Below are positions 43,143-53,114 of a stretch of DNA of 64,000 bases, piece by piece; position 1 is the first letter of the stretch; every line of letters starts with the position of its first letter. The DNA comes from Parvibaculaceae bacterium (lineage in GTDB: Bacteria > Pseudomonadota > Alphaproteobacteria > Parvibaculales > Parvibaculaceae), in assembly GCA_019636015.1 (NCBI GenBank), contig JAHBYJ010000002.1, forward strand, positions 310,001 to 374,000. The letters run 5' to 3'. Position numbers and translations under genes: made by a program. Under the pieces are notes generated by a model. The model ran no database searches. It was not told the DNA's origin and was given only the letters and a program-made list of their open reading frames with translations.

Positions 43143-43279
43143 GGGGAGAGATTAGGACCTTTTTCCGCGCTTCGCACCTGCGAAATCTCAAGATGACCTT
43201 GCGGAAAACACGCAAAGACAACCCTCGCCCCCTATTGAAAGCTAGGCCAGGCTGGAGAGCCTGTGGCAGGTTGCGCCCC

Positions 43280-46894
<3,615 letters not shown>

Positions 46895-46954: not shown

Positions 46955-47935
46955 ATGAAAGCCATCCGCTGCCATGCCTATGGCGCACCCTCCTCGCTTA
47001 CGCTTGAGGACATGGACGATCCCGCACCCCGCGCAGGCGAAGTCGTGATCGAGACGGAGGCGGCAGGCCTTGGCTATGTCGATGCGCTGCTCGTCGCGGG
47101 CCGCTACCAGGTGAAGACGCCGCTTCCCTTCGTGCCGGGCAGCGAGGTCGCGGGCCGCGTCGTCGCGCTTGGCGAAGGCGTGCCCGGGAAGATGATGGGC
47201 CAACGCGTCATGGCGCTCTCCCCGCGCGGCGCGCTCGCCGAAAAACTCGCGCTCCCCGCCGTGGTCTGCATTCCCGTGCCCGCGAACATGAGCGCGGAGG
47301 CCGCCGCCGGTTTCATCGTCTCCTATTGCACCGCGCTTTACGGCTTCGACACTTGCGGGCATCTCCGCGAAGGCGAAACCGTGCTCGTGCTCGGCGCGGC
47401 CGGCGGCGTCGGCATGGCGGCAATCGATGTCGCGAAGGCCATGGGCGCTAAGGTGATCGCCGCCGCTTCGACGGAAGCAAAACGCAACGCGGCGCTCGCC
47501 GCTGGCGCCGATGCCGCGCTCGACTATTCCGATCCGGAATGGCGCAAGGCGCTCGAGCCGCTCACCGGCCGCCGCGATGTCGACATCGTCTACGATCCCG
47601 TCGGCGGCGATTTCTCCGAAGCCGCCTTCCGTTCGCTCGCACCGGGCGGCCGCCACCTCGTCGTCGGCTTCGCGGCAGGCGACATTCCGCGCATTCCCTT
47701 GAACCTGCCGCTCCTGAAGCGCGCCTCCATCGTCGGCGTCGACTGGGGCGGCGAAATCCGCGCGAACCCTGCCTCGAACATTCCCCTGATGCAGAAGCTG
47801 ACCGAATGGGCGGCCGCCGGAAAGATCCACCCCGAGCCCGCCGCGAGTTTCCCGCTCGCCGAAGCGCCGGCCGTGCTTCAGCGCCTGCTCGACCGTGAAA
47901 GCGTGGGCAAGCCGGTCATCCGTTTTGCCGGCTGA
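46955..47935 (+). CDS. NADPH:quinone oxidoreductase family protein (MDR)
   Basis: 326 residues from ATG 46955 with GGAG and 8 nt spacing. GroES-like half with GLGYVDALLVAGRYQVKTPLPFVPGSEVAGRVVALGEGV; Rossmann half with GETVLVLGAAGGVGMAAIDVAKAMGAKVIAAASTEAKRNAALAAGADAALDYSDPEWRK, DIVYDPVGGDFSEAAFRSLAPGGRHLVVGFAAGDIPRIPLNL. It has no zinc ligands. It is a paralogue type distinct from the gene at 39751. It is 60 nt downstream of the hydantoinase on the same strand, so co-transcription is plausible but a functional link is not evident. Confidence 0.87.
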   Translation: MKAIRCHAYGAPSSLTLEDMDDPAPRAGEVVIETEAAGLGYVDALLVAGRYQVKTPLPFVPGSEVAGRVVALGEGVPGKMMGQRVMALSPRGALAEKLALPAVVCIPVPANMSAEAAAGFIVSYCTALYGFDTCGHLREGETVLVLGAAGGVGMAAIDVAKAMGAKVIAAASTEAKRNAALAAGADAALDYSDPEWRKALEPLTGRRDVDIVYDPVGGDFSEAAFRSLAPGGRHLVVGFAAGDIPRIPLNLPLLKRASIVGVDWGGEIRANPASNIPLMQKLTEWAAAGKIHPEPAASFPLAEAPAVLQRLLDRESVGKPVIRFAG

Positions 47936-48152
47936 ACCACAGCCACGAGCTGCGAAATGGACGGGAATCGGCGGAACCGCCCTCCCGCGCTGCGGCATGC
48001 GCCTGAAAATGGATCGTGACGGTTTGTCATTCACACGCCGATTGAGGGCCGGATTCAAGGGCTTGTACGACCTTCTTGAAATGCCCGAAAACACCGCTTC
48101 GCCCTTGCCTCGATTCCGCTTGCGGAGCGCCACAGGAAAGCCTGAAAATTCT

Positions 48153-48172
48153 CCTCCACCCGCGAGTGGAGG
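48153..48172 (+). promoter_or_regulatory. Hairpin that encloses the ribosome-binding site
   Basis: CCTCCAC (48153-48159), loop CCGCGA, GTGGAGG (48166-48172). The 3' arm contains the GGAGG that serves the ATG at 48178, with 5-nt spacing. The 7-bp stem is perfect and GC-rich, so the ribosome-binding site would be hidden when folded. The 240 nt before it (47936-48152) have no gene I can support. Confidence 0.6.
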
Positions 48173-48177
48173 CTGAA

Positions 48178-48258
48178 ATGCTTGCAATGAAGGCTGGATA
48201 TCTGGCGACCGGGCTCGCGTTTCTTTTCGTAGGTGCGGTCACAATGGGGGTCTTCTGA
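48178..48258 (+). CDS. 26-residue single-span membrane peptide
   Basis: ATG 48178 to TGA 48258 encodes MLAMKAGYLATGLAFLFVGA-VTMGVF. After one Lys, about 19 residues are hydrophobic and Gly-rich, sufficient for one membrane helix. GGAGG stands 5 nt before the ATG, one of the best ribosome-binding sites in the window, but it is buried in a hairpin. An upstream in-frame ATG at 48076 gives a 60-residue form with an unlikely N-terminus. No family is recognised. A GC hairpin at 48295 follows, so the transcript looks like a discrete unit. Confidence 0.5.
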   Translation: MLAMKAGYLATGLAFLFVGAVTMGVF

Positions 48259-48294
48259 TCCCCGGCGACCGGCAGGAGCCGCAATGAAATTCGG

Positions 48295-48321
48295 AGGGCG
48301 CTTCCCGGCGGGAGGCGCCCT
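48295..48321. terminator. GC-rich hairpin after the small membrane peptide
   Basis: AGGGCGC (48295-48301) and GCGCCCT (48315-48321) pair around a short inner CCC/GGG stem. The tail TCCTCGTTTC is only moderately T-rich. It lies between the small ORF and the convergent CMD gene, which ends at 48330, and could serve both. Confidence 0.55.
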
Positions 48322-48329
48322 TCCTCGTT

Positions 48330-48881
48330 TCAGTTCCGCGCCGGAAAGCGCGGCGCGTAATCCTCCAGCGGCAGGCGCAGCGCGTTCACCGTGAACGACA
48401 CCATGTGATAGAGCCCCGTCAGCACTACGAGTTCGATGATCTGCTCATCCTCGAACTCGGCCTTGAGCGCCGTCCATAGTGCATCGTCCACGTTGTTCGT
48501 GTCGTGCAGCTGATCGACCAGCCGGACGATCAGCCTCTCCCGCGGCGACCAGCAGGCTGCCTCCGCGCCCGGCGCCACAGTCGCCGCGATCTCCTCCGGT
48601 CCAAAGCCGATGCGCTCCGCAAATAGCGCCATATGTACGCCCCATTCGTACTCGCCGCCGCAGCGCGCGCAGGCACGGTCGATGGCGATTTCCCGCTCGC
48701 GCATGCCGATCGTGCCCTTGTCGAGCAGCCCGCCCGCCATGAAGCGGCGGAAGACGCGCGGATTGCGCGCCAGCGTCCGGAACAGGACAAGCGGCTCGAC
48801 GCCGGGCGGCATCAGCTTCTCGAGCGTCTTTTCCATGTCCTCTGCATAGGGCCTTGCAGCCGGCTCGATCCGTGCGCTCAT
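48330..48881 (-). CDS. Carboxymuconolactone decarboxylase (AhpD-like) family protein
   Basis: 183 residues, all-helical. GMREREIAIDRACARCGGEYEWGVHMALFAERIGFGPEEIAATV is the CMD core, with the C-x-x-C pair at CARC and the EYEWGVH variant of the usual His motif. DEQIIELVVLTGLYHMVSFTVNALRLPLED is the second CMD helix pair. In peroxiredoxin-partner members the two cysteines are redox-active. The EYEW subtype is common in uncharacterised oxidoreductases. It is divergent from the HxlR gene across a 77-bp region with two operator-like dyads, so HxlR probably controls it. Confidence 0.85.
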   Translation of the reverse strand: MSARIEPAARPYAEDMEKTLEKLMPPGVEPLVLFRTLARNPRVFRRFMAGGLLDKGTIGMREREIAIDRACARCGGEYEWGVHMALFAERIGFGPEEIAATVAPGAEAACWSPRERLIVRLVDQLHDTNNVDDALWTALKAEFEDEQIIELVVLTGLYHMVSFTVNALRLPLEDYAPRFPARN

Positions 48882-48958: not shown

Positions 48959-49303
48959 ATGAGCGAGAGAAAATCGAACCCGCTGAAGCCAGGCCGCCCC
49001 GCGCGTGGCTCTTCCACCGGCCGCCCGGTCATGCTGCTGCTCGACCTGCTCGGGCGGCGCTGGGTTTTGCGGATATTCTGGGAGCTTCGCGGCGAGGCAT
49101 TGAACTTCCGCGAGCTGCAGGCGGCCTGCGGCGGCATTTCGCCGAGCGTCCTCAATACGCGGCTTGCCGAGTTGCGCGAGGCGGCGCTTGTCGACCTGCT
49201 GCCCGATCGGGGCTATGCGCTGACAAGGCAGGGGCGCGAGCTGCTCGCGCATCTCACGCCCCTCACCGTCTGGTCTGAAAAATGGGCGAAGTCGCTCGCC
49301 TGA
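48959..49303 (+). CDS. HxlR family transcriptional regulator
   Basis: 114 residues from ATG 48959. The winged helix-turn-helix has the HxlR pattern: LLDLLGRRWVLRIFWELRGEALNFRELQAACGGISPSVLNTRLAELREAALVDLLPDRGYALTRQGREL, ending in LTVWSEKWAKSLA. There is no N-terminal Cys, unlike redox-sensing HypR/YodB members, so a ligand-sensing mode is more likely. It probably regulates itself and the divergent CMD gene. Its stop is 3 nt from the convergent metH stop. Confidence 0.9.
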   Translation: MSERKSNPLKPGRPARGSSTGRPVMLLLDLLGRRWVLRIFWELRGEALNFRELQAACGGISPSVLNTRLAELREAALVDLLPDRGYALTRQGRELLAHLTPLTVWSEKWAKSLA

Positions 49304-49306
49304 TCG

Positions 49307-51988
49307 TTAGGCCGCTTCCTCTTCCGGCTCACGGCCGGGCGTGTAGTTGAGGATCGGCGCAAGCCAGCGCTCCACGACGCGCAGCTCCATGCCCTTGCGC
49401 CGCGCATAATCCACCACCTGGTCGCGCTCGATCTTGCCGACGCCGAAATATTCAGATTGCGGGTGGCTGAAATAGAGCCCGCTCACAGAAGCGCCGGGCC
49501 ACATGGCATAGCTCTCTGTCAGCTTCACGCCGATCTTCTCTTCCGCTTCGAGCAACCGGAACAGCGTCGCCTTCTCCGTATGGTCGGGCTGCGCCGGATA
49601 GCCGGGCGCCGGGCGGATACCCTGATATTTCTCCTCGATCAACTCGGCATTGGTGAGCTGTTCGTCCGCGGCATAAGCCCAGAACTCGCGGCGAACGCGC
49701 TCATGCATGTGCTCGGCAAAGGCTTCCGCGAGACGGTCCGCAAGCGCCTGCGAGAGAATGGCGCGATAGTCGTCATTCTTCGCCTTGAAGTCCTTGGCCA
49801 CATCGTCCTCGCCGAACCCGGCGCTGACGCAGAATGCGCCGACATAGTCGGCAATGCCGCTCTCCTTCGGCGCCACGAAATCTGCCAGCGCGAAATTCGC
49901 GCGCTCCGACGTCCGCTTCATCTGCTGCCGAAGCGAGTGGAACGTCGCGAGCGGCGCTTTCCGGTCGTCGCCCGTATAGAGCTCGATATCGTCGGCACCC
50001 ACCTCGTTCGCCGGCCAGAAGCCGATGACGGCGCGCGCCTTCAGCCACTTCTCCTCGACCATCTGCTTCAGCATCTCCTGCGCATCGGCAAAGAGCGAAC
50101 GCGCTGCCTCGCCCACCGTCGCATCCTCGAGAATTTGCGGATAGCGGCCGGCAAGTTCCCAGGTCTGGAAGAAGGGCGTCCAGTCGATATAGGGAACGAG
50201 CTTGTCGAGCGGGTAGTCGTCGAAGACTTTCGTGCCGAGGAAAGAGGGCTTCACCGGCTTGTAGCCGTCCCAGTCGATCTTCAGGCGATTCTCGCGCGCC
50301 GCCGCCAGTGTCTGCCGGTCTTTCTTCTTCTGCCCGGCGGCATGGCGCGCTGCGAGATCTTTGTAGTTATTCCGGATATCGGCGATGTAGTCCTCTTTCC
50401 GCTCGGAAATGAGATTGGAGGCAACGCCCACCGCACGGCTCGCATCGGTCACATAGATCGCCTGCCCCGCCTTGTAGTTCGGGTGGATCTTCACCGCCGT
50501 GTGAATCTGGCTCGTCGTCGCCCCGCCGATCATCAGCGGAATGTTGAAGCCCTGCCGCTCCATCTCCGCCGCCACATGGCACATCTCGTCGAGCGAGGGC
50601 GTGATGAGCCCCGACAGCCCGATGATATCGACCTTGTGCTTGCGCGCTTCCTCGAGAATCTTCTCGGCCGGCTGCATCACGCCAAGGTCGATCACCTCGA
50701 AATTATTGCACTGGAGAACGACGCCCACGATGTTCTTGCCGATATCGTGCACATCGCCCTTCACCGTCGCCATCAGGATGCGGGCGGCGGCATCGTCGTC
50801 CGTAATGCCGAGTTCTTCCTTTTCCTTCTCCATGAAGGGCATGAGATAGGCGACCGCCTGCTTCATCACGCGCGCGCTCTTCACAACCTGCGGCAGGAAC
50901 ATCTTGCCCGAACCGAAAAGGTCGCCGACGACATTCATGCCGTCCATCAACGGGCCTTCGATGACATGGAGCGGCCGCTCGAAAAGATGTCGCGCCTCTT
51001 CCACATCCTCTTCGATAAAGGCGTTGATGCCCTTCACCAGCGAATGGGTGATGCGCTCCTTCACCGGCTTCTCGCGCCAGGAAAGGTCTTCCTCGCGCTT
51101 CTTGCCCGCCTCGCCCTTGAAGCGTTCGGCAATCTCGAGCAACCGCTCGGTCGCATCCGCTCTCCGGTTGAGGATCACATCCTCCACGCGCTCGCGCAGT
51201 TCCGGTTCGATATCGTCATAGATCGCAAGCTGCCCTGCGTTGACGATGCCCATGTCCATCCCCGCTTTGATGGCGTGATAGAGAAACACGGAATGCATTG
51301 CCTCGCGCACTGGCTCGTTGCCGCGGAACGAGAAGGAGATATTCGATACACCGCCAGAAATATGCGCGTAGGGCAGGTTCTGCTTGATCCGCGCGCAAGC
51401 TTCGATGAATTCGACGGCATAGTTGTTGTGCTCGTCGATACCCGTCGCCACCGCGAAGATATTCGGATCGAAGATGATGTCTTCGGGCGGGAAGCCCACC
51501 TTCTCGGTGAGGAGATTATAGGCTCGCTCGCAAATCTCGAACTTGCGGTCGGCCGTGTCTGCCTGCCCCACTTCGTCGAACGCCATCACAACCGTCGCCG
51601 CGCCGTAGCGGCGGATCTTGCGCGCCTGCGCGAGGAACGGTTCCTCGCCTTCCTTGAGGCTGATCGAGTTCACGATCGGCTTACCCTGGACGCGCTTCAG
51701 CCCCGCCTCGATGACGTTCCATTTCGACGAGTCGATCATGATCGGCACGCGCGCAATGTCCGGCTCCGCCGCGATCAGGTTCAGGAACTTGATCATCGCG
51801 GCTTCGGAGTCGAGCATCCCCTCATCCATATTGATGTCGATCACCTGCGCGCCGTTCTCGACCTGCTGGCGCGCAACCTCAAGCGCCTCGGCAAAGCGGT
51901 CTTCGAGGATCAGCTTCTTGAAGCGCGCCGAACCTGTCACATTGGTCCGTTCGCCGACATTGATGAAGTTCGCCGTGGTTTGAGTCAT
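49307..51988 (-). CDS. metH: Methionine synthase MetH, C-terminal part (folate, cobalamin and activation domains)
   Basis: 893 residues. It starts at the pterin-binding domain ([69 protein letters not shown]). Then comes the B12-binding domain with the axial histidine motif [29 protein letters not shown] and [13 protein letters not shown], and the AdoMet activation domain with [57 protein letters not shown]. It transfers the methyl from methyl-THF through cobalamin. The homocysteine domain is encoded by the separate gene upstream. The usual PAC-(P/E)HTEK cysteine is Gln here. Confidence 0.96.
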
Positions 51989-52040: not shown

Positions 52041-53114
52041 TCAGTCGGCCGCAAAGGGCTCAAGCCCCGAAAGCCGCATCCGCCGTTCGATCTGCGGCAC
52101 CTCGCGGGGCTTGCCGCCCTTCGCCGCCTGTGCGATGGCGCGGATATGGTCCGGCGTCGTGCCGCAGCAACCGCCGAGAACATTGACGAGGCCCGACGAG
52201 ACGAACTCGCCGACAAGCTTCGACATCTGTTCCGGGCTCTCGTCATATTCGCCCATCTCGTTCGGCAGGCCCGCATTCGGATGCGCCGAGACAAGCGTGT
52301 CCGTCACGCGCGACAGCGTGTCGATATGCTGGCGCATCTCCTTCGCGCCAAGCGCACAATTGAGGCCGATCGAGAAAGGCTCAACATGCCGCACCGAGTT
52401 CCAGAACGCTTCCGGCGTCTGGCCGGAAAGAAGCCGCCCCGACATATCGGTGATCGTGCCGGAAATCATGATCGGCAGCTCGATACCGTCCTGCTCGAAC
52501 ACATCTTCCACCGCATAAAGCGCCGCCTTGGCGTTCAGCGTATCGAAGATCGTCTCCACCAGAATGATGTCCGCTCCGCCCTTGATCAGCCCGCGCGTCG
52601 CCTCCTGATAGGCGACATAGAGCTTGTCGAAATCGACATTGCGAAAGCCTGGATCGTTCACATCCGGCGAGATCGAGGCCGTCCGGTTCGTCGGCCCGAG
52701 AACGCCCGCCACATAGCAGACGCGGCCCGGCTCTTCCTTCTCGCAGATATCGGCCGCCTCCCGCGCGATCCGCGCGCTCGCCACATTCATCTCGTAAGCG
52801 AGATCTTCCATGTGATAGTCGGCCTGCGCGATGCGCGTCGCGCCGAACGTGTTGGTCTCGGCAATATCGGCGCCCGCGCGGTAATACTGCATATGGATGT
52901 CGCGCAGAATGTCCGGCTGCACGAGCGAGATGAGCTCGTTGTTGCCTTTCACGTCGCTGCCATGATCCTTGAAGCGCTCGCCGCGGTAATCCGCTTCGCC
53001 GAGCTTGTAGCGCTGGATCATTGTGCCCATTGCCCCGTCGAGAATGAGCACGCGCTTCTTCACCTCTTCCTTGAGATGGGCAATGCGTTCTTCGCGTGTT
53101 TTCGGATGGCTCAT
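52041..53114 (-). CDS. metH: Methionine synthase, homocysteine-methyltransferase domain (MetH N-terminal part)
   Basis: 357 residues. [63 protein letters not shown] (zinc Cys) and [19 protein letters not shown] (two zinc Cys) define the Hcy domain of cobalamin-dependent synthase. The protein ends soon after that domain, and the remaining MetH domains are in the next gene, 52 nt downstream with its own start. Both pieces are intact, so this is a natural two-gene MetH, not a frameshift. It lies 21 nt after metF. Confidence 0.95.

Follow-up and report, generated by a model that had tools for sequence, protein, structure and literature searches.

The 64,000-nucleotide stretch analysed here (the window) encodes on its plus strand a 26-codon open reading frame (ORF) that, as judged from its evolution among relatives, is a genuine gene under protein-level selection. 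We consider it rather probable that this is a stand-alone, transcriptionally controlled gene for a single-pass inner-membrane microprotein, and that the hairpin covering its Shine-Dalgarno (SD) sequence arose largely by chance and does not act as a translational gate. Protein-level selection, a conserved slot after an oxoprolinase-type gene, a strong SD sequence and a covarying terminator are all apparent in the sequence evolution of the locus. The microprotein family is real and had previously not been filed.

The ORF can be read directly from the sequence, with an ATG start at 48178, a stop codon at 48256-48258, and a hydrophobic product of 26 residues (MLAMKAGYLATGLAFLFVGAVTMGVF; 48178-48258, plus strand). 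The SD sequence GGAGG (48168-48172, plus strand) lies 5 nt 5' of the ATG, separated from it by CTGAA; it is invariant in an alignment of 18 loci from the window's subclade, and an SD-like motif is present upstream of the ORF in all 32 loci compared. The maximum Kyte-Doolittle mean over 19 residues is 1.88 for the window peptide and between 1.81 and 2.34 across the 32 loci, which corresponds to one hydrophobic helix of membrane-spanning length in every case. The single hydrophobic helix that the first-pass annotation had described is thus shared by all 32 loci. The peptides are 23-29 residues long, with a possible length of 41 in one distant relative (G175).

In a protein search covering 146 genomes, of which 27 belong to the window's own genus, Parvibaculum, and the others to its family and class, the ORF was recovered in 27 of the 27 Parvibaculum genomes. 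The same result came from a profile search over 40 genomes of the order, which also showed a single copy per genome, always in the same slot, and added three genomes of two sister genera (G030, G029 and G033), the last of which had given a weak match in the protein search and is real by profile. The frameshifts or stops in relatives that had been proposed as grounds for doubting the ORF do not occur: there are no broken copies, and it is intact in every relative, including all 27 genomes of the genus. In the last 21 codons of the 27 Parvibaculum loci pS is 0.61 and pN is 0.15 (pN/pS 0.25), and the variable columns number 14, 5 and 21 at the first, second and third codon positions, a pattern that is gone in shifted frames. 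A chance ORF without a product might be suspected from a length of only 26 codons, but this reading is already contradicted by the intact copies throughout the genus, by the third-position excess and by distant homologues that keep the same neighbour, and its probability is negligible. Intactness in 27 of 27 genomes, the pN/pS ratio and these distant homologues are the reasons for regarding the ORF as a true gene.

The distant homologues come from a class-wide search of two even, overlapping genome samples (385 and 389 genomes), in which the ORF was found outside its own family in three genomes belonging to two other alphaproteobacterial families: G161 and G264, which are of one genus and encode a peptide of 23 residues (MDLGYIATGVVFAFIGAIVMGVL), and G175, whose peptide ends in RMGYIAAGAAFAFIGALVFGLL and may extend to 41 residues from an SD-supported ATG. 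On the basis of this distribution the ORF is older than the family Parvibaculaceae. By profile, none of the nine genomes of the sister genera g2 and g3 contains it, once partial matches in G032 and G035 are disregarded. The sequence 3' of the oxoprolinase-type gene was inspected in eight of the nine, G036 being left out as the end of that gene was not located. Because it was not found in these two genera, the ORF is not essential to the family. Several other candidates were set aside. Matches in G032, G034 and G035 and at a second site in G006 are spurious, being partial and covering only 10-13 residues; the one in G034 (g5, a genome 70% complete) spans 13 residues and was left out of the counts. 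Matches in G069 and G407 lie inside other frames, and those in G037, G101 and G138 were rejected as weak matches within longer frames.

The upstream neighbour is a hydantoinase/5-oxoprolinase-type gene (43193-46894, plus strand; Pfam Hydantoinase_A and _B, and synteny), and a gene of this type lies upstream of the ORF wherever the neighbourhood was read. In part of the genus, including here, a zinc-type/quinone oxidoreductase gene (46955-47935, plus strand) lies between the two. Downstream, a carboxymuconolactone decarboxylase-family gene (48330-48881, minus strand; Pfam CMD) and the C-terminal part of metH (49307-51988, minus strand; Pfam and synteny) are convergent with the ORF. In G161 and G264 the ORF sits between the oxoprolinase-type gene and metH, the same as in Parvibaculum, and in G175 an oxoprolinase fragment, matched at 40% over 57 aa (E 2.6e-5 in a very small database), precedes it. 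In this genome metH is split into two minus-strand genes (49307-51988 and 52041-53114), with the methyltransferase domain separate, and metH of G161 and G264 is a single ORF of about 1237 codons. An HxlR-type regulator (48959-49303, plus strand) is divergent from the carboxymuconolactone decarboxylase-family gene.

The peptide has no recognised family, as the first-pass annotation had surmised: profile searches of Pfam, NCBIfam, PHROGs and PDB gave no significant match, and the best matches below the cut-off were COX2-transmemb (E 0.092), DUF1206 (E 0.17) and SecE (E 0.3). A tblastn search of the 41-residue relative against plasmids gave no match. Literature searches for Parvibaculum small proteins or sORFs, for the P. 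lavamentivorans transcriptome and for the peptide string yielded no report of the peptide among the matches listed. The family is small and new, and its kind, the small membrane protein, is already known.

An intrinsic-terminator-like hairpin follows the ORF at 48293-48323 (plus strand; GGAGGGCGC...GCGCCCTTC), and a hairpin with a T-rich tail is present in 24 of the 32 loci. The first-pass annotation had pointed out this hairpin, and it proves to be real: in a hand alignment of 14 of the 24 terminator loci, excluding near-duplicates and other clades, its stem shows two-sided changes at four positions, one of which occurs as A-T, G-C and C-G. Covariation is therefore detectable at this locus, and the stem over the SD sequence is without it. 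A further hairpin spans the stop codon (48246-48263, GGGGGTC/GATCCCC). It is weaker than the one at 48293-48323, its arms differ between clades, and it reaches p <= 0.05 against shuffled downstream sequence in 9 of the 32 loci, which are related to each other. A small ORF followed by a terminator is also the layout of a leader peptide controlling a downstream gene by attenuation, but the gene order contradicts this, since the next genes, for the carboxymuconolactone decarboxylase-family protein and MetH, are convergent on the minus strand, and the peptide sequence is itself conserved; we give this reading hardly any weight.

Short hydrophobic single-helix peptides are also typical of type I toxins (e.g. 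TimP), and a toxin-like membrane peptide, silenced by a structured leader together with an unseen antisense or trans-acting sRNA, would likewise be short, form a single hydrophobic helix and have its own predicted promoter and terminator. The gene is nevertheless present in every genome of the genus that was searched, as a single copy in a fixed slot; its leader structure is not conserved, and no toxin family in Pfam, NCBIfam or PHROGs matches it. The fixed slot, the single copy, the gene's own predicted promoter and its terminator and the lack of a downstream sense gene weigh against a leader peptide and, to a mild degree, against a type I toxin, and we regard the latter as very unlikely.

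The SD sequence lies within a perfect 7-bp inverted repeat at 48153-48172 (plus strand), made up of CCTCCAC (48153-48159), a CCGCGA loop (48160-48165) and GTGGAGG (48166-48172), and direct reading confirms the perfect stem over GGAGG that the first-pass annotation had described. In isolation the hairpin has a folding energy of -11.0 kcal/mol at 37 C, and it is less stable at 45 C (-9.2 kcal/mol) than at 25 C (-13.7 kcal/mol), as any stem would be. CCTCCAC-N6-GTGGAGG has its sole exact match in the 64-kb window here, and among 53 starts of long ORFs with SD support, a list containing spurious frames, no other in the window has a perfect stem of more than 5 bp across the SD core. Shuffling the 40 nt 5' of the SD sequence yields a perfect stem of at least 7 bp over GGAGG in 1.9% of cases. 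The stem is unusual, but so many genes were read that it does not count as extreme.

These features raise the possibility that the hairpin is a real translational gate, whether a thermometer or controlled by an sRNA or other factor, that was gained within a Parvibaculum subclade, with transcription starting further upstream, a folded leader, and a signal that opens the SD sequence. Some aspects of the 18-locus alignment favour this. Paired cells in register amount to 87.0%, compared with 46-57% when the partner is slid, and RNAalifold retains five SD pairs and two outer pairs, with changes that are one-sided, nearly all G-U preserving, and mostly C to U. The cost of opening the SD sequence exceeds that of shuffles at p <= 0.05 in three of the 32 loci (L002, L014 and L015). 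However, the seven stem pairs contain no two-sided changes, and 372 of 500 shuffles reach their covariation score, such that the compensatory mutations that the first-pass annotation had suggested looking for are absent. The stem is fully Watson-Crick over 7 bp in only five of the 18 loci (L001, L004, L007, L014 and L015), each of the two inner pairs is unpaired in six of the 18, and the stem is missing from most deeper loci, L023 and L024 retaining five pairs. Five-pair stems with G-U pairs over GGAGG form in 13-84% of shuffles, and the conservation of pairing speaks only weakly for a gate because a pyrimidine-rich arm readily pairs with GGAGG. At the window locus itself the opening cost is 7.7 kcal/mol compared with 6.4 kcal/mol in shuffles (p = 0.24).

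The position of the predicted promoter also bears on the hairpin. A pattern match gives a predicted -35 element, TTGCGG (48120-48125, plus strand), and a -10 element, GAAAAT (48144-48149, plus strand), separated by an 18-nt spacer, from which a transcription start 7 nt past the -10 element, at 48156 (plus strand), is predicted within the 5' arm of the hairpin. The pattern TTG[CG]NN-N16-18-xAxAxT is present in 29 of the 32 loci, compared with 1.0 expected from dinucleotide shuffles in a 95-nt scan, although it was defined on the very loci scored, which are mutually related; a scan with the E. coli consensus found no promoter at the locus. With the predicted start near base four of the 5' arm, the mRNA would keep only about four of the seven pairs (approximately CCAC/GTGG), and with this start the computed cost of SD opening drops from 6.4 to about 5.0 kcal/mol. 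The predicted leader is 19-29 nt long across the 18 subclade loci and begins CCACC in 12 of them, where it is 22-29 nt long; that it starts with the same bases despite its varying length suggests that the 5' arm holds a constant distance from the promoter, but not from the SD sequence.

The hairpin is thus probably not a conserved control element, and its 5' arm may lie partly outside the RNA. The proposal of a translational gate fares poorly in the light of the missing covariation, the absence of the stem in deeper relatives, the unremarkable opening cost and the predicted start within the 5' arm, and we judge it unlikely; the more specific suggestions of gating by temperature, a small RNA or a leader-binding factor gained no positive evidence, and Rfam has no match at the locus (a lone trypanosome snoRNA chance hit elsewhere in the stretch scores 19.8 bits, where the threshold is 50). 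That the five SD pairs and two outer pairs are nearly always kept through G-U pairing in the 18-locus subclade could be explained by a weak gate. More generally, overlap of the 5' arm with the start of transcription can make a convincing SD-hiding hairpin an accident.

In the favoured reading, that of a transcriptionally controlled membrane microprotein gene, the gene would be transcribed monocistronically from its own predicted sigma70-type promoter (-35 TTGC, -10 xAxAxT), with a start some 22 nt 5' of the ATG, and the hairpin would be mostly an accident of the sequence around that start. Control of output would act chiefly on transcription and would originally have relied on a conserved box at the -35 element that is now degraded in this genome. 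This box overlaps and precedes the -35 element in many relatives, which have YGCRNYGCRGCMACGAWTNNG before TTGC; the corresponding segment here (48096-48119, plus strand) reads gcttcgcccttgcctcgattccgc and does not match. Its strict form, GCAGCNNCRAN5-6BTTGS, matches 17 of 33 loci, among them G161, G264 and G175, and several of the misses differ by one base. In G175 the box is some 200 nt upstream of the SD-supported ATG, from which a longer leader would follow. The box is recognisable across alphaproteobacterial families and offers a direct handle on regulation of the microprotein. When it was used to search for a regulon, the sole strong match in most genomes was the ORF's own site. The other sites inspected, namely those of the first scan with fetched loci (n=23), were rejected as a regulon, as all 23 lie within stop-to-stop open frames of at least 150 codons.

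Two further sequences in relatives resemble regulatory elements. A second conserved block (48010-48050), about -170 from the ATG in relatives, reads TGACAGAAATTCATCCACA in many of them and tttgtcattcacacg here, and partly resembles a DnaA box or another promoter. The sequence TTGCGGCGCARCAnTTAATGTAGGCTTCGA is common to G013:C1:15274 (L084) and G024:C1:672052 (L103), at the end of a long open frame, and is possibly another operator of the same kind as the box.

A candidate for the regulator is the alphaproteobacterial PhaR (AniA), whose operator motif has the core YGCRNYGCR as reported for S. meliloti (PMC12542648). This core, with which the conserved block then opens, occurs just upstream of the -35 element in 16 of the 32 loci, including distant ones, and is absent from that position in the other 16, including the window; the conserved box reaches well past the PhaR core. 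A PhaR family protein (PF07879) is encoded in 13 of the 13 genomes tested, which is not discriminating. Six Parvibaculum phasin promoters (L108, L109, L110, L112, L113 and L114), read by eye, have TTGTGCRNYGCACAA-like palindromes around a TTGACGC -35 element, as PhaR operators have. The ORF product is not a phasin. PhaR control of the microprotein promoter is a lead only, because the window's copy has lost the PhaR core. An extended form of this idea is that the family, being older than Parvibaculaceae, belongs to a carbon-storage (PHB) response in which the YGCRNYGCRGCMACGAWTNNGYTTGC box next to the -35 element is a binding site for PhaR or a regulator like it, which controls a single-helix peptide of the membrane or the PHB-granule surface, and that the window's subclade lost the operator while the SD-complementary 5' arm became strongest there; we regard this as a doubtful proposition with a rather small chance of being correct.

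For the peptide itself, we return to the favoured reading of an inner-membrane microprotein. Its insertion would be N-in/C-out, given a lysine near the N-terminus and a C-terminus at the helix end, and its conserved Gly/Ala face (GY..TG......GA...G) may pack against a larger membrane protein. By analogy the microprotein is probably an accessory or regulatory subunit of such a protein, and the neighbouring genes do not reveal the membrane partner.

RNA thermometers and SD-sequestering leaders include ROSE and fourU, and the locus resembles these in having a stem that pairs the SD sequence; it differs in that the stem does not covary, is limited to a subclade, has no Rfam match and is probably truncated by the transcription start. 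Small bacterial membrane proteins of less than 50 aa, e.g. CydX, KdpF and MgtS, bind larger membrane proteins. The ORF differs from these in that its peptide matches no Pfam, NCBIfam or PHROGs model or PDB chain and its neighbours encode soluble metabolic enzymes with no obvious membrane partner, but it shares with them a tiny, SD-driven reading frame, a single hydrophobic helix, a conserved face of glycine and other small residues, and a type of gene that commonly goes unannotated.
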